Made by a program: the position numbers and the translations under genes. The notes beneath the pieces are model-generated. The model made no database searches. It was not told the DNA's origin and saw only the letters and a list, made by a program, of their open reading frames with translations. Positions 2,470-64,000 of a DNA stretch of 64,000 bases are shown piece by piece. Every line of letters starts with the position of its first letter. Positions within the stretch are counted from its first letter, which is position 1. The stretch covers positions 1 to 64,000 of the IMG/VR virus record IMGVR_UViG_3300030104_004476; one strand, written 5' to 3'. The DNA is from a virus.

Positions 2470-2952
2470 ATGAATATATTTTATTTAGACAAAGATCCAG
2501 TTAAAGCTGCTAAAGTACAGTATAACAAGCACGTAGTCAAAATGATACTTGAGTCGGCTCAGATGTTATGTACGGCTCATCATGAATTACTAGATGATCC
2601 TGATGTACCATACAAACCAGCTCATGTAAATCACCCATCAACAATATGGACTAGAAGTGATAATCATCATTACCATTGGTTATATGATCACATGCTGGCC
2701 TTAGGTGATGAGTATACTAAAAGATATGGTAAAACACATTTATCAATAATTAAATGTAAAGAAGCATTACGATTAGCACCTGTTAATATACCACATGTAG
2801 AGTTTAAACAACCTCCGCAGTGTATGCCAGATGAATATAAAGATAAATGTAGTATACAAGCTTATTGGAATTATTATATAGGTGAAAAACACATAGTAGT
2901 AAATAAAAACAAAGAAAAATTATATGAACAAAGACCTAAAGAAACGTATTAA
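2470..2952 (+). CDS. Conserved phage protein, possible DNA-repair-like family
   Basis: A 160-aa protein starting MNIFYLDKDPVKAA one base after the ligase stop; an upstream in-frame extension into the ligase gene is rejected. The 'KHVVKMILESAQML' helix, 'HVNHPSTIWTR' and 'PPQCMPDEYK' segments are hallmarks of a family common in marine phages. It may be related to pyrimidine-dimer glycosylase-like proteins, but I recall this only weakly and no catalytic residue can be assigned. Clustering with ligase fits nucleic-acid processing. Several histidines could bind metal. Confidence 0.7.
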   Translation: MNIFYLDKDPVKAAKVQYNKHVVKMILESAQMLCTAHHELLDDPDVPYKPAHVNHPSTIWTRSDNHHYHWLYDHMLALGDEYTKRYGKTHLSIIKCKEALRLAPVNIPHVEFKQPPQCMPDEYKDKCSIQAYWNYYIGEKHIVVNKNKEKLYEQRPKETY

Positions 2953-3067
2953 AAAGTTTAATAATATAAAATATGTTAAAGATAATTCTAAAAGAATTAT
3001 TATTGCAACATTAAGTGTTAATTCAGGTAGAGTATGGAGCGTGACAACAGCCCCTAAGAATAAATAG
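2924..3067 (+). CDS. Small basic 47-aa protein
   Basis: The frame opens 29 nt before the previous stop and ends at a TAG 10 bases before the next gene. The product is lysine-rich at its N-terminus (MNKDLKKRIKKFNNIK), followed by a short beta-like segment. No family was recognised. Part of the left arm of the dyad at 3041-3084 lies inside its 3' end, so regulation and coding overlap here. Confidence 0.5.
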   Translation: MNKDLKKRIKKFNNIKYVKDNSKRIIIATLSVNSGRVWSVTTAPKNK

Positions 3068-3084
3068 TAACAGGCTTATGTCAT
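3041..3084. promoter_or_regulatory. Long dyad spanning the start codon of the HTH gene
   Basis: Left arm TGACA-AC-AGCC (3042-3052) is mirrored by right arm GGCT-TA-TGTCA (3073-3083). The ATG of the 3078 gene lies within the right arm. Two further dyads with the same arms lie at 58821-58866 and 59349-59396. It could be a DNA operator or an RNA hairpin hiding the start codon. Confidence 0.65.
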
Positions 3085-3698
3085 ACGAAAGAAACCTAAA
3101 ATACCTAAATAATAATAGGATTACTTATAGGCGTTTACCTATAACTGATAAACCTACAATAGATACCAAAGAATACATGTTTTACGAAAACGGTACGCAT
3201 GAGTGCTATGAGTTATTCCGTTCGTCAGCAAAAATAACTACATATAAGTCTCTAAAATGGCACTTACTTGTTCTTTGGTATCTTAACCCTCAACTTGATC
3301 CTGATGACTTTAATAAGTTAGCAGAGGTTATATCTCATAAACCAAATGGTTTTGTAAGTTTTGAGTTGTCAGATAGAATATTAGATAAGATTATATATGG
3401 AGTTAGCATGGCTGATTTAGAGCGTCCACCAAAAAATAAATTACGTAAAGTTATATTTAAACCTTTTACTGGATTAACTAAAGAACAAAAATTATCTATC
3501 GTAGGATCATTAATAGGTGTAACAAATAAGATACATTCAGACGACATATATCAATGTATGATAGATACACATGACATAAATAAAAAGATTACAATAAAAC
3601 GGCTCTCTGAGCTTCTTAACGTATCACAACGAACTATACATAGACACATGTGTGAAGATTTAAAAAGAGAAAAAGAATTATTAAACCAACAATTATGA
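3078..3698 (+). CDS. HTH DNA-binding protein, candidate early regulator
   Basis: A 206-aa protein whose C-terminal part (about residues 168-200) forms a clear helix-turn-helix: ITIKRLSELLNVSQRTIHRHM, followed by a charged helix. The N-terminal 160 residues are not recognised and may be a dimerisation or replication-initiator-like domain. It overlaps the sigma-factor gene by 4 nt (ATGA), so the two are probably translationally coupled. A long dyad covers its start codon and recurs in the early/late control region, which suggests autoregulation and control of the switch (inference). Confidence 0.7.
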   Translation: MSYERNLKYLNNNRITYRRLPITDKPTIDTKEYMFYENGTHECYELFRSSAKITTYKSLKWHLLVLWYLNPQLDPDDFNKLAEVISHKPNGFVSFELSDRILDKIIYGVSMADLERPPKNKLRKVIFKPFTGLTKEQKLSIVGSLIGVTNKIHSDDIYQCMIDTHDINKKITIKRLSELLNVSQRTIHRHMCEDLKREKELLNQQL

Positions 3699-4447
3699 AA
3701 AAATATAACTCAAACAATTTCAGTAGATATAAAGTAGATGTTAAATCTTCTCAACCAACTAGTAAACATTATAGTGAATATACTAGAGATGAAATGGTTG
3801 CAAGGTTTTTACCATTAGTTGAAAATATTGCGCGTAAATTTAATAAAAGTGAATCATCAAGTGGTATATTATCTTTATCAGATATGATACAGTTTGGAAA
3901 TATAGGTTTAGTAAAAGCTGTTGATAAAATAGATTGGTTGAAATTAGGTCAATCAAACGATATCGAAAAAACACTAAAGTCATTTTTATCTAAACGTATT
4001 CGTGGAGCTATTCGTCGTGCTACAGATGCTAATCGTTCTGGTATGAGATTACCTGAGCATAAGCTTAACGAAATACGTAATGACTTTGAAAATCCTAATA
4101 ATTCAGAAATGTTTTTTAACTCAATGTTTCAAAGTATTGATTCAGGAGTAAACAACGATGAAAATCACGTGTATCAAATAGAAGATACATCAGGAGATCC
4201 AATGAAAAAAGAACACTTAGCTTATAAACTTCGTGACGTTATGTTACAATACTTAAATGATAAAGAATATAATGTTCTTTGCTTAAGCTTTGGTTTAAAC
4301 TGTGATAAGCTTTCTGCTAAACAGATCGCAGAAAAATTAGATATGAAAGGTAGTAGTTCTTATGTTCGTGTTTCACAGTTAAAAAAGCAGGCAATTGACA
4401 AATTAAAAAAGGTAATGGACTACTCGCAAGTAGTTGATTACCTGTAA
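3695..4447 (+). CDS. Sigma-70 family RNA polymerase sigma factor
   Basis: A 250-aa sigma factor. Region 2 lies at about residues 30-110, with the core-binding DMIQFGNIGLVKAVDKID segment and the 'RIRGAIRRATDANRSGMRLP' melting/recognition segment. Region 4 is C-terminal: 'YNVLCLSFGLNCDKLSAKQIAEKLDM' then an HTH. Sigma regions 1.1 and 3 look reduced. It should redirect host RNA polymerase to phage promoters. Given eight copies of one non-host promoter-like motif in the window and no phage RNA polymerase, it is the natural candidate for recognising that motif or the late variant. Confidence 0.85.
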   Translation: MKKYNSNNFSRYKVDVKSSQPTSKHYSEYTRDEMVARFLPLVENIARKFNKSESSSGILSLSDMIQFGNIGLVKAVDKIDWLKLGQSNDIEKTLKSFLSKRIRGAIRRATDANRSGMRLPEHKLNEIRNDFENPNNSEMFFNSMFQSIDSGVNNDENHVYQIEDTSGDPMKKEHLAYKLRDVMLQYLNDKEYNVLCLSFGLNCDKLSAKQIAEKLDMKGSSSYVRVSQLKKQAIDKLKKVMDYSQVVDYL

Positions 4448-42156: not shown

Positions 42157-42185
42157 AATATAATATATAATAAAATTAATAAAAT

Positions 42186-42215
42186 AAAAGGCCGAGGCCG
42201 AAGCCCCGGTCTTTT
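42186..42215 (-). terminator. Intrinsic terminator after the major capsid gene
   Basis: On the minus strand: AAAAG-A-CCG-G-GGC, TTCG tetraloop, GCC-T-CGG-C-CTTTT, followed by a T/A-rich run. A UUCG-capped GC-rich hairpin with flanking A and T tracts, in a strongly AT-rich genome, is a clear terminator. It probably limits read-through from the highly expressed capsid gene. Confidence 0.85.
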
Positions 42216-42224
42216 AAAAATAGT

Positions 42225-58166: not shown

Positions 58167-58541
58167 CTAATATTTACCTCTAACTCCTTTTGGGTTAGAT
58201 TTAGTTGAACCACCTTTTCCAGCCCATAAATTTTTACATGCCCAATAGCTAGCTGTTAGTTTACTTTTCTTTTGATCACATTTATGTCTAGCTCTAAAAC
58301 TTTTTCTAGCTGCAGCAGAATAATTATGACCATATCCTGTAGCTCCAAAGTGTATTATCTTTTCTTGGCCATCCTCACAAGCTTTAACAACCTTTTTCTT
58401 TTCAGGTTTTGGAGATCTACGAGGCTTATTACAAGCCATCTTACTCTTGTCAAGTTTTTTAAATCCACTACCTATACCACTAGCTCTACGTCTACCACAG
58501 CTGGTAACTGGAAATGGATGATTTTTTTGAGTATATGCCAT
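58167..58541 (-). CDS. Cys/Lys-rich protein resembling DUF5754
   Basis: 124 aa. 'EKIIHFGATGYGHNYSAAARKSFRARHKCDQKKSKLTASYWACKNLWAGKG' follows the pattern recalled for DUF5754 (IxFG..GY.....A..R..F.ARH......T..YW....LW), which occurs in cyanophages and giant eukaryotic viruses. Several cysteines are spaced for metal binding. The N-terminal third (CGRRRASGIGSGFKK) is basic. One-base overlap with the upstream gene. Domain assignment is from memory. Confidence 0.6.
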   Translation of the reverse strand: MAYTQKNHPFPVTSCGRRRASGIGSGFKKLDKSKMACNKPRRSPKPEKKKVVKACEDGQEKIIHFGATGYGHNYSAAARKSFRARHKCDQKKSKLTASYWACKNLWAGKGGSTKSNPKGVRGKY

Positions 58542-58783
58542 TATCCTTCTTTTTTAGTTCCTTTACCAAAATTGCCTCTATTGTTTTTTACAGAAACTAG
58601 AACTAGTTTTCCATTTTTATCATGATGTATATCTTTATTACGAAGATTAAACCCACTTTTCTTAAGTCTTCTACGTTCCACTTGATTCTCCGCTTTTTTT
58701 TGTTTACGAGCGGTAGTCATAGCGAAAACTGTATCTCTCTTCTTCTTAGCAGCTGCTGCTTTTGGTGATAGTTTCTGTGCCAT
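58541..58783 (-). CDS. First gene of the late unit: small basic protein
   Basis: An 80-aa Lys/Arg-rich protein. 'RRRLKKSGFNLRNKDIHHDKNGKLVLVSVKNNRGNFGKGTKKEG' resembles the DxxHxxG..V..S...N...G..... pattern of small HNH-like or 'NRGNxGKGTKxE' proteins common in phages. It starts the leftward unit, about 130 bases downstream of a candidate promoter. Role unknown; an HNH-like fold cannot be confirmed. Confidence 0.6.
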   Translation of the reverse strand: MAQKLSPKAAAAKKKRDTVFAMTTARKQKKAENQVERRRLKKSGFNLRNKDIHHDKNGKLVLVSVKNNRGNFGKGTKKEG

Positions 58784-58820: not shown

Positions 58821-58866
58821 TATGACAATAGCTTGTTACTAATACTTCTTAATAGGCTTATGTCAC
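58821..58866. promoter_or_regulatory. Long dyad, late side of the control region
   Basis: Left arm TGACA-AT-AGC (58823-58832), right arm GCT-TA-TGTCA (58856-58865), 43 bp end to end. Same arm pattern as at 3041-3084 and 59349-59396. It lies 40 bases from the first late gene start. Confidence 0.6.
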
Positions 58867-58914
58867 TAAAATTATATTGTAAATGTATATAGTTTGTATA
58901 GCCCCCACCTATCT

Positions 58915-59342: not shown

Positions 59343-59348
59343 AAAACA

Positions 59349-59396
59349 GTGACAAGAGCCTATTACTATCTCTTTACTTAGTAGCCTTATGTCACA
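59349..59396. promoter_or_regulatory. Long dyad behind the hammerhead ribozyme
   Basis: Left arm TGACA (59350-59354) plus AGCC, right arm TGTCA (59390-59394), 45 bp end to end, with further A-T and G-C pairs between. It belongs to the same three-member family as 3041-3084 and 58821-58866. As RNA it would form an imperfect hairpin just after the ribozyme. Confidence 0.6.
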
Positions 59397-61287: not shown

Positions 61288-61478
61288 GTAAAACATTAGA
61301 AGAAATAATAAAAATAGTATCAGAAAGAGCTATTGAAACTATAGACGAAGGTTTATATGAATTAATAGGTAAAGACGAGAGTGATCCAGATGGATTTTAT
61401 GAAGACTATATGGAGTGTTTACCACATATAGTTAAGAATATAAGTAAATTTCAAAATATAGTAGATGAAGAGAATTAG
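61284..61478 (+). CDS. Small acidic phage protein (full-length copy)
   Basis: A 64-aa acidic helical protein (MSKTLEEIIKIVSERAIETID...), the full-length homologue of the truncated gene at position 1. It overlaps the upstream gene by 4 nt and the next small frame by 14 nt. No domain recognised. It marks the start of the right-hand copy of the repeated block. Confidence 0.7.
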   Translation: MSKTLEEIIKIVSERAIETIDEGLYELIGKDESDPDGFYEDYMECLPHIVKNISKFQNIVDEEN

Positions 61479-61599
61479 AAAAATATTTAAGTACGAACCT
61501 AAAATTATTAAAACGCTAAAAGAATATGAGCAAAAAGAGAAAGCTGAACAGCAAAAATCCAAAATACAAAACACAGGCAGAAATAAAAGCAACAACTAA
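61465..61599 (+). CDS. 44-aa basic protein overlapping the next frame
   Basis: Homologue of 137-283 (MKRIRKIFKYEPKIIKTLKEYEQ). It is four residues shorter and more diverged than its overlapping neighbour. In the overlap, substitutions relative to the left copy all alter this product while remaining silent in the neighbour, so this C-terminus looks weakly constrained. Real translation remains uncertain. Confidence 0.45.
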   Translation: MKRIRKIFKYEPKIIKTLKEYEQKEKAEQQKSKIQNTGRNKSNN

Positions 61600-61684
61600 A
61601 GATGTTGACAAAAAGGTGCTAATTAAAGAGCTAACAAGACAAGGTGTTAAAGGTGTTAAGGTATACGCTACATTTTATAAATAA
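61526..61684 (+). CDS. Conserved 52-aa basic protein, second copy
   Basis: Protein identical to that of 210-368 despite nucleotide differences, hence under purifying selection. The stop codon TAA ends exactly where the structured-RNA candidate begins; its last base is shared with the RNA's first stem. Function unknown, basic N-terminus. Confidence 0.75.
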   Translation: MSKKRKLNSKNPKYKTQAEIKATTKDVDKKVLIKELTRQGVKGVKVYATFYK

Positions 61685-61858
61685 ACGAGGTGAGGGTGGT
61701 AGCGCGTGAGATGTGTATGTAGTGAATTGGCTCGACTAGTGATAGCAACGAAACTACAATCTTACTCACTTGGCAGAACGGCAGGATAAAGCAAAAGAGA
61801 TAACAGACCACAGGCATGTGCTTGAAACTCAATGAACCACACCTGCCCGACCTCGTTT
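61684..61858 (+). ncRNA. Structured RNA candidate, ~175 nt
   Basis: The ends close in a long interrupted helix: AACGAGGT with ACCTCGTT, AGG with CCT, GTGGT with ACCAC. Inside are GTGAG/CTCAC, GTAGT/ACTAC and CACA-GGCA-TGTG hairpins. GC content is higher than the surroundings, the 3' end is T-rich, and no reading frame fits. The whole element is absent from the homologous site at 368-370. It is not a tRNA, tmRNA or RNase P RNA by its motifs. Orientation as + RNA is inferred from context. Confidence 0.6.
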
Positions 61859-61873
61859 TATTTACAAATAAAA

Positions 61874-61896
61874 TACGAACACTAATGGATAATAAT
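61874..61896 (+). promoter_or_regulatory. Early promoter-like motif 5
   Basis: TACGA, eight bases, GGATAATAAT; counterpart of 371-393. It begins 15 bases after the structured-RNA candidate and precedes the gene at 61921. Confidence 0.7.
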
Positions 61897-61920
61897 ATAA
61901 ACCAAATAAAATAAACCAAT

Positions 61921-62121
61921 ATGAATATGAGTTACTGTAGGTTTGAGAATACAGAAAAAGACCTAAATGATTGCCTTTATGCAATAGAAGAAGGAGATTA
62001 TACAGATTTATCTTCTTATAGAGAAGAACAAGCTTTAAGAAGTTTGTTTGATACTTGCGAAGCAATACTTGATTACAGAGATGAAGTATTAGAAAAATTA
62101 AACTACCAAAAAAACCAATAA
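61921..62121 (+). CDS. Conserved small phage protein (MSYCRFENT family), second copy
   Basis: 66 aa; homologue of 408-602, identical at most of the first 61 positions, with a different C-terminal end (…LNYQKNQ). First gene after an early promoter-like motif. Function unknown. Confidence 0.8.
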   Translation: MNMSYCRFENTEKDLNDCLYAIEEGDYTDLSSYREEQALRSLFDTCEAILDYRDEVLEKLNYQKNQ

Positions 62122-62122
62122 T

Positions 62123-62314
62123 ATGAAAGACGGTATATATGAAAGCGATAACGCTAGATACTTTGTGCAAAACGGCAAAGTACTTATGAACTTAAAAGGT
62201 ATTGGCTGGTACAAAACAACTAAACATTTTAACTTCGGTAAATGGGTATCAGAGTTAAGCTCTGCAATGAGTGTTAATTTTGACAATGCTTATTTAACAG
62301 CAAAGCAGTGGTAA
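62123..62314 (+). CDS. 63-aa protein occupying a variable slot
   Basis: 63 aa (MKDGIYESDNARYFVQNGKVLMNLKGIGWYKTTKHFNFGKWVSELSS), mixed alpha/beta. It replaces the unrelated 614-850 gene of the left block at the same position, one base after its upstream neighbour, and its stop overlaps the next start. No domain recognised. Confidence 0.6.
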   Translation: MKDGIYESDNARYFVQNGKVLMNLKGIGWYKTTKHFNFGKWVSELSSAMSVNFDNAYLTAKQW

Positions 62315-62421
62315 TGAGAAGGTTAATATATGATATGTATTACAAAGAAGAAATATCTATGGACATAGCAATGAGACTATTAGATAAATTAACAGAACTT
62401 TCAAATAAAAAACGAAGATGA
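62314..62421 (+). CDS. 35-aa helical peptide, second copy
   Basis: Homologue of 838-945 with conservative differences (MRRLIYDMYYKEEIS...). Start overlaps the previous stop (TAATG) and its stop overlaps the next start (ATGA). Conserved in both blocks although flanking genes differ, supporting its reality. Confidence 0.6.
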   Translation: MRRLIYDMYYKEEISMDIAMRLLDKLTELSNKKRR

Positions 62422-62684
62422 CGGGAGAACAAATAGAAAATTATATTATCAACGAACTTGATAGTGAACCAAGACACAACTGCGAGGCTTTAGCAGAAGC
62501 CATAAACCATATAGCTAATGAAGTTGAATATGACTCATTTGCTCTTATGCAGTTGTTATTAGAAAATAAACCAATAAATGCCTTGCATACACATAGCTAC
62601 GGCTTTCACACGGCTAACGGTAGGTCGCTAATTGAAGGTATGCAAAATGCTTATTATACCGAAGTACAATTTTATGTCGACTAG
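62418..62684 (+). CDS. Block-specific 88-aa protein
   Basis: 88 aa acidic helical protein (MTGEQIENYIINELDSEPRHNCEALAEAINHIANEVEYDSFAL). Absent from the left block, where the 35-aa gene runs straight into the 130-aa gene. It overlaps both neighbours (4 and 11 nt), so its insertion preserved coupling. No family recognised. Confidence 0.6.
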   Translation: MTGEQIENYIINELDSEPRHNCEALAEAINHIANEVEYDSFALMQLLLENKPINALHTHSYGFHTANGRSLIEGMQNAYYTEVQFYVD

Positions 62685-63045
62685 AGCACAAGTTAGATTT
62701 GCTACACGAGAAGAAGGAGTATCGTTTAGTGAACACCCAAAAGTTATACACGCACAGTTTTATGTGCATCACGATGGTTATCCAGAAGGATTAGGTTTGG
62801 AAATAGCTGAGTCATTAACTAAATATAAAAAGATAATGCACTGGGAAATAGAAGAGCTGTTTACTAGACACGGCGATCTTGAGTATGTGTATTATGTGTG
62901 GCAACACCCAATGAAAACTACATGGATTAGTATATTTGAAGAAAAATATAACGAAGATTTGACCAAGTCTGATAAGTGTATATTCGTAGGTGAACCAAGT
63001 AATCTTATAGATAAATACAAACCTAATACGAATGAGCAAGGATAA
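62674..63045 (+). CDS. Conserved phage protein (MSTRAQVRF), second copy
   Basis: 123 aa starting MSTRAQVRF at 62674; an upstream in-frame extension within the preceding gene is not conserved in the left copy and is rejected. Very similar to 942-1334 until the C-terminus (YKPNTNEQG). Function unknown. Confidence 0.75.
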   Translation: MSTRAQVRFATREEGVSFSEHPKVIHAQFYVHHDGYPEGLGLEIAESLTKYKKIMHWEIEELFTRHGDLEYVYYVWQHPMKTTWISIFEEKYNEDLTKSDKCIFVGEPSNLIDKYKPNTNEQG

Positions 63046-63049
63046 TATA
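63027..63049 (+). promoter_or_regulatory. Early promoter-like motif 8 overlapping two genes
   Basis: TACGA, eight bases, GGATAATATA. It overlaps the end of the preceding gene and ends three bases before the ATG at 63053, as in the left copy. Confidence 0.6.
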
Positions 63050-63052
63050 ATT

Positions 63053-63307
63053 ATGACAGATGAACAACTAAGAAAATTAATAGATGGTCTTGCTGATCAA
63101 ATGGTAAAACGTATTTATGGTGTAGCTGAAGAGCAAAGCCAAACTACGTTCTATGCAGACAGAGATGAAGACCACGCTATGGGTGAGTTAGCTAGGCTAA
63201 TGACACTATCAGCTATATACGAAGACAGAGAAGAATATGAAAAATGTGCTGCGATTAAAAAGCATATAGATAAAATAAATAAAATTATAGATAAATATGA
63301 TGCGTAA
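63053..63307 (+). CDS. Small UVR-motif protein, second copy
   Basis: 84 aa from ATG at 63053; three substitutions relative to 1373-1627. UVR motif at residues ~55-78 (EDREEYEKCAAIKKHIDKIN). The start at 63032 is possible but lies within the promoter-like motif. It overlaps the ligase start by 11 nt. Confidence 0.7.
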   Translation: MTDEQLRKLIDGLADQMVKRIYGVAEEQSQTTFYADRDEDHAMGELARLMTLSAIYEDREEYEKCAAIKKHIDKINKIIDKYDA

Positions 63308-64000
63308 AAAACCAATGCTAGCTTATCCAGTTAGCGACAAACCGATAGATTATACCCAACCTGTATTTATGCAACCAAAGCTTGATGGTGTGCGTTGTCT
63401 TATACAAGCAGAAAAGCTACCATTTGATATGGGCTACGAACCAGTAGCTTATTCACGCACAGGTAAACAGTGGTTAAACATTGAGCATATACTACAAGGT
63501 CTTAAACCTTTCTTTCAAGCTAACCCTAATGTTATACTCGACGGTGAGTTATACAATCATGACTTAAAAGATGACTTCGAGCAGATTATTTCTTGTGTTC
63601 GTAAAACTAAGCCAACTGAAGAACATAGAGCTCAATCAAAAGAGCTTGTACAGTTTCACTGTTATGATATTGTAGATGAAGATGCTGTGTTTGACTGGCG
63701 TGCTGATTTTATCGGCGATGAACTAGAAGAATCTTACTGTGTAAAGCACGTAATGACTACTTACAATATTGATAGCGAAAAACAAGCTAAAGATATTCAT
63801 CAAGCTAATCTTAATAAAGGTTATGAAGGTTCTATTGTTCGTTTAAACGACACATATCAATGCAAGCGTTCACATAGCTTACGTAAGTTCAAAGACTTTC
63901 ACGATGCTGAAGCTACACTAACTAGCTGGGTCGAAGGTAAGGGCAAGCGTGTCGGTACTATTGGCAAGTTCATAGCTGTCGATACTGATGGTAATGAGTT
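63297..64000 (+). CDS. ATP-dependent DNA ligase, second copy, 3' truncated by window
   Basis: The first 234 codons of a ligase homologous to 1617-2468, with motif I KLDGVR, motif III LDGELY, motif IV EGSIVR and motif V-like LRKFKDF all kept. The region between motifs I and IV is clearly diverged and carries a short insertion (AEKLPFDMGYEP), while both termini and the motifs are conserved. Divergence is much greater than in the neighbouring small genes, pointing to recombination or a different strain. Runs off the right edge of the window. Confidence 0.85.
   Translation, partial: MMRKKPMLAYPVSDKPIDYTQPVFMQPKLDGVRCLIQAEKLPFDMGYEPVAYSRTGKQWLNIEHILQGLKPFFQANPNVILDGELYNHDLKDDFEQIISCVRKTKPTEEHRAQSKELVQFHCYDIVDEDAVFDWRADFIGDELEESYCVKHVMTTYNIDSEKQAKDIHQANLNKGYEGSIVRLNDTYQCKRSHSLRKFKDFHDAEATLTSWVEGKGKRVGTIGKFIAVDTDGNE

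Follow-up and report, generated by a model that had tools for sequence, protein, structure and literature searches.

What binds three long and closely related inverted repeats in the DNA of a podovirus, one of which covers the start codon of a gene for a helix-turn-helix (HTH) protein, and which genes do they control? The DNA analysed here (the window) comprises 64,000 nt of the 66,408-bp parent IMG/VR virus record IMGVR_UViG_3300030104_004476. The terminase shares 65% identity with its counterpart in the Manatee Spring podovirus MW202828 and about 46% with the terminases of Flavobacterium elemo phages, a kinship that places the virus in a clade of the Bacteroidetes-phage type, which should not be read as a host assignment. 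A preliminary description of the window had pointed out three long dyads, and all of them were found at the positions given there. Measured from TGACA through TGTCA, dyad A (3042-3083), dyad B (58823-58865) and dyad C (59350-59394) span 42, 43 and 45 bp, respectively; with the outer TG and CA included, they measure 46, 47 and 49 bp. Dyad A (3040-3085, plus strand) is a pair of inverted half-sites that extends over the start of the HTH gene (3078-3698, plus strand; 206 amino acids), whose ATG does lie inside the right arm, as part of ATGTCA. Dyad B (58821-58867, minus strand) is situated immediately upstream of a putative leftward late promoter, while dyad C (59348-59396, minus strand) lies among early genes, and the conserved late-type promoter was not found beside it. 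As had been described, the ATGTCA of dyads B and C is present without a gene, for it opens just 10 and 4 codons there.

The three dyads follow the general form TGTGACANNAGCC-N-GGCTWATGTCACA, i.e., two inverted half-sites of about 20 bp each within 46-48 bp, and the better-conserved half-site reads TGTGACANTAGCCTRTTACTA. The pair of arms said to be common to them recurs at all three sites, except that the third right arm is AGCCTTATGTCA rather than GGCT-TA-TGTCA. Within the window, the pattern TGACANNAGC-N20..28-CTTATGTCA matches in exactly three places, compared with 0.00 in 100 dinucleotide shuffles; as this pattern was picked after the sites had been seen, conservation is a stronger argument than the shuffle count. 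Single half-sites or arms, when searched alone, showed no excess over shuffles, and hence only their paired arrangement is informative. The polarity of dyads B and C is opposite to that of dyad A: it is on the minus strand that they align with the plus-strand sequence of A, with the AGTAAYAGGCT half beside the gene. A fourth copy is present beyond the window, at positions 64254-64299 of the parent record; by its position, it is the counterpart of dyad A in a divergent repeat of the start of the record. The end of the window (61329-64000) repeats positions 1-2311 with about 79-94% identity at an offset of 61.3-61.7 kb, and this divergent copy of the early region probably reflects differences between strains at the point where the ends of a circular or terminally redundant genome meet.

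Viral contigs encode 47 relatives of the HTH protein (52-95% identity), and in 46 of these dyad A, with a length of 46 or 47 bp, covers the start codon of the HTH gene. Because its right arm spells ATGTC, the HTH protein begins with Met-Ser in all 46. The sole exception, locus L042, has kept the HTH gene and lost dyad A; its protein starts with Met-Asn, and one distal dyad is retained. According to the preliminary description, the absence of the dyads from otherwise similar phages that conserve the HTH gene would speak against its proposal; the outcome was the reverse, given that 46 of the 47 relatives keep dyad A and L042 keeps a distal copy. To judge from these sequence comparisons, the dyads represent a single 46-48 bp element that is conserved in a clade of Bacteroidetes-type podoviruses.

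Is this element recognized as DNA, or does it act as a hairpin in the transcript? In the window, the left arm of dyad A is traversed by the 3' end of a 47-codon open reading frame (2924-3067, plus strand; ending ..SVTTAPKNK stop), and in the relatives it coincides with the ends of different upstream reading frames, in different frames, or lies where there is no open reading frame of at least 30 codons (15 of 47). The left arm is thus kept across differing frames and outside coding regions, which argues for its conservation as DNA. Watson-Crick matches between the arms are as frequent as expected from independent columns, and a formal count found pairing in 87.0% of the cells as compared with 86.6% in shuffles, 136 of 500 of which scored as high. 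Compensatory base-pair changes between the arms were not detected across the aligned sites. Instead, either half-site may carry A or G at position 7 and C or G at position 12, independently of the other, and at the variable pair 7/44, A.C mismatches are as frequent as G.U pairs. A translational operator acting on the RNA, which the preliminary description had offered as an alternative, would have a transcript hairpin at dyad A hide the HTH start codon, with a protein or the folding itself controlling translation. The ATG is placed in the stem of the predicted mRNA fold at A (-10.3 kcal/mol in the window, where z is -1.4; in relatives, z goes down to -4.4), and the arm contains the start codon in 46 of 47 relatives; however, covariation is absent, an Rfam search of the window at the gathering threshold gave no match, and dyads B and C are away from start codons, with B located upstream of a promoter. 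We therefore regard an RNA operator as very improbable, although a secondary, minor effect of the hairpin at A on translation may exist. From the independent variation of the arms, the lack of compensatory changes and the preservation of the left arm irrespective of frame, the dyad is best understood as a pair of DNA half-sites and not as an RNA hairpin.

The element also recurs at some distance from the HTH gene. One or two more dyads, 4.5-9.2 kb upstream of dyad A, are present at each of the 30 loci for which 9.3 kb or more of upstream sequence is available, and these distal dyads are inverted relative to A. Nearly all of the 41 distinct distal dyads have the asymmetric half (TTACT) on their leftward side, as next to the HTH gene in dyad A; a few are turned round, for example, those of L018-L020 and L022. 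In a strict pattern scan of viral contigs, 105 of 124 matches have a spacing of 42-43, whereas the same scan of contigs from cellular genomes yielded a flat spread of spacings and random-looking hosts; the cellular matches were for this reason taken to be mostly chance occurrences. Partial contigs of further relatives carry a dyad copy that has on one side a hairpin following a capsid-region gene and on the other the beginning of the next gene, and one nearly full record of this group possesses the HTH gene together with four dyads. The corresponding place of the window (42157-42224, minus strand) has no dyad; what lies there between the capsid-region gene and the one after it is a hairpin resembling a terminator, together with an A+T-rich stretch resembling a promoter. 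The possibility that A and B/C flank an invertible segment was also considered and set aside, as there was no link to a recombinase.

Several inverted copies around a divergent region, and an HTH gene that is located among replication genes (ligase, ERF and primase-helicase nearby), could suggest a role of the dyads in replication, partition or recombination (as origin iterons, parS-like sites or targets of a recombinase), with the HTH protein as an initiator or accessory factor. We deem this highly unlikely: dyad B stands in a fixed register with a bipartite promoter, a capsid-region gene is preceded by extra copies in other relatives, and searches with the HTH protein matched neither a recombinase nor an initiator.

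The promoter in question is defined by a bipartite motif, T(T/G)TAA-N16-GTRANWAT, that recurs downstream of B-type dyads and begins 4 to 8 nt after their GTC. It is present at 32 of 198 dyad sites (shuffled mean 0.94, maximum 4), and the spacing is exactly 16 nt in 24 of these 32; as the motif was derived from the same sites at which it was counted, the fixed spacing is the telling part of this result. A looser match to the -10-like element was found at 58 of 126 B-type sites, where shuffles gave 5.9 on average, versus 3 of 72 A-type sites. The motif is absent at many B- and C-type sites, including dyad C of the window. At dyad B, the putative late promoter consists of a -35-like element, TTTAA (58818-58814, minus strand), and, 16 nt downstream, the -10-like element GTAATAAT (58797-58790, minus strand). 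If the latter is set at about -14 to -7, the centre of dyad B would come to lie near -60, a usual place for an upstream activator. Dyad and bipartite motif are found at a fixed distance from one another, as one would look for in a regulator site of late promoters. The first gene of the leftward late cluster (58541-58783, minus strand; 80 amino acids) has its ATG only 7 nt past the -10-like element, a distance that varies in the relatives, and the late mRNA from this promoter may have little or no leader. A late-type promoter downstream of dyad A was considered as well, given that TAATAATA is present there in the same register in the window; this stretch is, however, coding (three Asn codons), and, with -10-like matches at just 3 of 72 A-type sites, the candidate was rejected.

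The arrangement at dyad B bears on the direction of the control. The location of dyad A, over the beginning of the HTH gene itself, would suit an HTH protein that only represses, at A, B and C alike, and that holds off the late genes until a later event removes it. Dyad B, however, stops 5-6 nt before the -35-like element and leaves the promoter uncovered, a placement more usual for activation, and we consider a pure repressor to be rather unlikely.

Which protein, then, fills these sites? The HTH protein, with a predicted C-terminal HTH near residues 169-191, is the likely ligand. Pfam HTH_11 was matched with an E-value of 1.8e-4 and 21.8 bits, which is below the gathering score of 25. The AlphaFold model of the protein has a mean pLDDT of 88, and its residues 148-206 align with DNA-binding HTH domains (VIA-align), with a modest best Z of 6.5 that pertains to the HTH part only. 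A Foldseek search of the model against the PDB yielded no significant match, a comparison of the protein's profile with PDB sequences gave nothing below an E-value of 0.01, and a fold search of BFVD returned one unnamed relative (A0A516MIB4, E 2e-12). The stop codon of the HTH gene is overlapped by the start of a gene for a phage sigma-70-type factor with regions 2 and 4 (3695-4447, plus strand), a possible partner at late promoters.

Among records of at least 50 kb, the dyad is present in all 39 that yielded the HTH gene, while in 14 such records from the MW202828-like and elemo-like clades no full HTH homologue was found and the dyad is present in none; the elemo record NC_055854, likewise without a dyad, contains a weak match to part of the HTH protein outside the HTH (E 7e-5). 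These gene-less records form separate clades, and the co-occurrence of the HTH gene and the dyad is thus phylogenetically confounded. The sigma-70-type gene moreover has the same distribution as the HTH gene and the dyad in the 26 records searched. As the HTH gene, the sigma gene and the dyad travel together by clade, their co-occurrence does not choose between the two proteins.

A different ligand, be it the phage sigma factor, a polymerase modified by the phage or some protein of the host, might accordingly bind the dyads and leave the HTH protein to do something else; the sigma gene matches the dyad in its distribution no less exactly than the HTH gene, and dyad B abuts a promoter. Nevertheless, dyad A is positioned at the start of the HTH gene and not at that of the sigma gene, and the promoter motif is missing beside most A- and C-type dyads. 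Inverted 20-bp half-sites three helical turns apart are also unlike the promoter element of a sigma factor, which counts against a sigma ligand. While such a ligand deserves to be kept in mind, we view it as unlikely; the position of dyad A over the HTH start and the symmetry of the dyad favour the HTH protein. The shared DNA operator envisaged in the preliminary description, through which the HTH protein would control its own gene and the early/late switch region, is hence backed by conservation, gene co-occurrence, the fixed spacing of the half-sites and the register between dyad B and the late promoter, while binding by the HTH protein itself is likely rather than certain, given that the sigma gene is distributed alike.

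We consider it fairly probable that A, B and C are operator copies and that the HTH protein, as their likely ligand, activates the late promoter at B and represses its own operon at A; the sites, their conservation, the independent variation of the arms, the register with the promoter and the co-occurrence with the HTH and sigma genes are results of the analysis, whereas the identity of the binding protein, what it does at A and at B, and any function of C are inferences. The early genes, including those for the HTH protein and the sigma factor, would be transcribed first. The HTH protein would then accumulate and bind the two inverted half-sites as a dimer or higher oligomer. By filling dyad B, it would activate leftward late transcription, perhaps together with the phage sigma factor, and by filling dyad A, over the start of its own HTH-sigma operon, it would repress that operon. 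Dyad C, among the early genes, may help in the early shut-down or form a bridge to B. More tentatively, the locus could represent an undescribed early/late switch of a large Bacteroidetes-type podovirus clade, in which a new family of HTH proteins and a co-transcribed sigma factor act jointly at late promoters, with the dyad as the upstream activator site, and in which the copy of the dyad over the start codon of the regulator limits both proteins; this is quite possible, although we would stop short of calling it probable.

The kind of mechanism proposed here is known from phi29 p4, P2 Ogr and Mu C. The early phi29 protein p4 recognizes imperfect inverted repeats situated between early and late promoters of divergent orientation, switching on the late promoter and repressing the early ones, and its pseudo-symmetric sites, of which one half is stronger, follow the consensus CTTTTT-15 bp-AAAATG that is read through A-tracts by a non-HTH fold (PMC3100819). 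Inverted-repeat sites with one better half, in the setting of what would likewise be an early/late switch, are shared with the podovirus studied here, but its half-sites are longer and GC-containing and do not match the p4 consensus. Furthermore, in contrast to phi29, the site covers the start codon of the regulator itself, and a phage sigma gene is part of the same operon. P2 Ogr and P4 delta activate several late promoters through the dyad TGT-N12-ACA, and Ogr is a small zinc-finger protein (CX2CX22CX4C); this signature is absent from the alignment of the HTH protein, and the dyad described here is more than twice as long (PMC3931495). By its site sequence, the system is hence neither of the phi29 p4 nor of the P2 Ogr type. 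Mu C is an HTH-type late activator that binds just upstream of the -35 region, and both the type of regulator and the placement of its site resemble those proposed for dyad B; sequence and length of the site differ, and the available part of the Mu C source contains no autoregulatory site over its own start codon (PMC4461284). The late promoters of phiEco32 and 7-11 depend on phage sigma factors (GTAAtg-16-aCTA in 7-11), with gp79 as a co-regulator in phiEco32. The bipartite late promoter with its 16-nt spacing and the presence of a phage sigma gene are reminiscent of 7-11, with the reading of the promoter by this sigma factor being putative; the host group is a different one, and no upstream dyad is reported for either phage in the accessible portion of that work (PMC8948821).

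The literature searched contains no description of the dyad site, the late promoter or late-gene control in this podovirus clade, and the site, the promoter and the protein family appear to be undescribed. If the proposal is true, dozens of uncultured phages gain a candidate regulator with its operator and late promoter, and the 47-position model of the dyad would serve as a sequence handle for late promoters in contigs without culture.

Two further sets of repeats were observed. A 51-nt early-promoter-like motif, ACAAACTAAATACGA-N6..8-GGATAATATAAT, is present in eight copies on the plus strand of the window (358, 1334, 59016, 59557, 59831, 60481, 61861 and 63014), mostly just 5' of small early genes, and in the relatives L019, L022, L024 and L046 a dyad lies directly upstream of it. 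In the elemo phage record NC_055854 (L300, 4100-4180), two copies of TTGTTTACATTTT, separated by about 55 bp, shortly precede the gene of gp54, which is the elemo protein weakly similar to the HTH protein; this pair possibly represents that phage's own operators.
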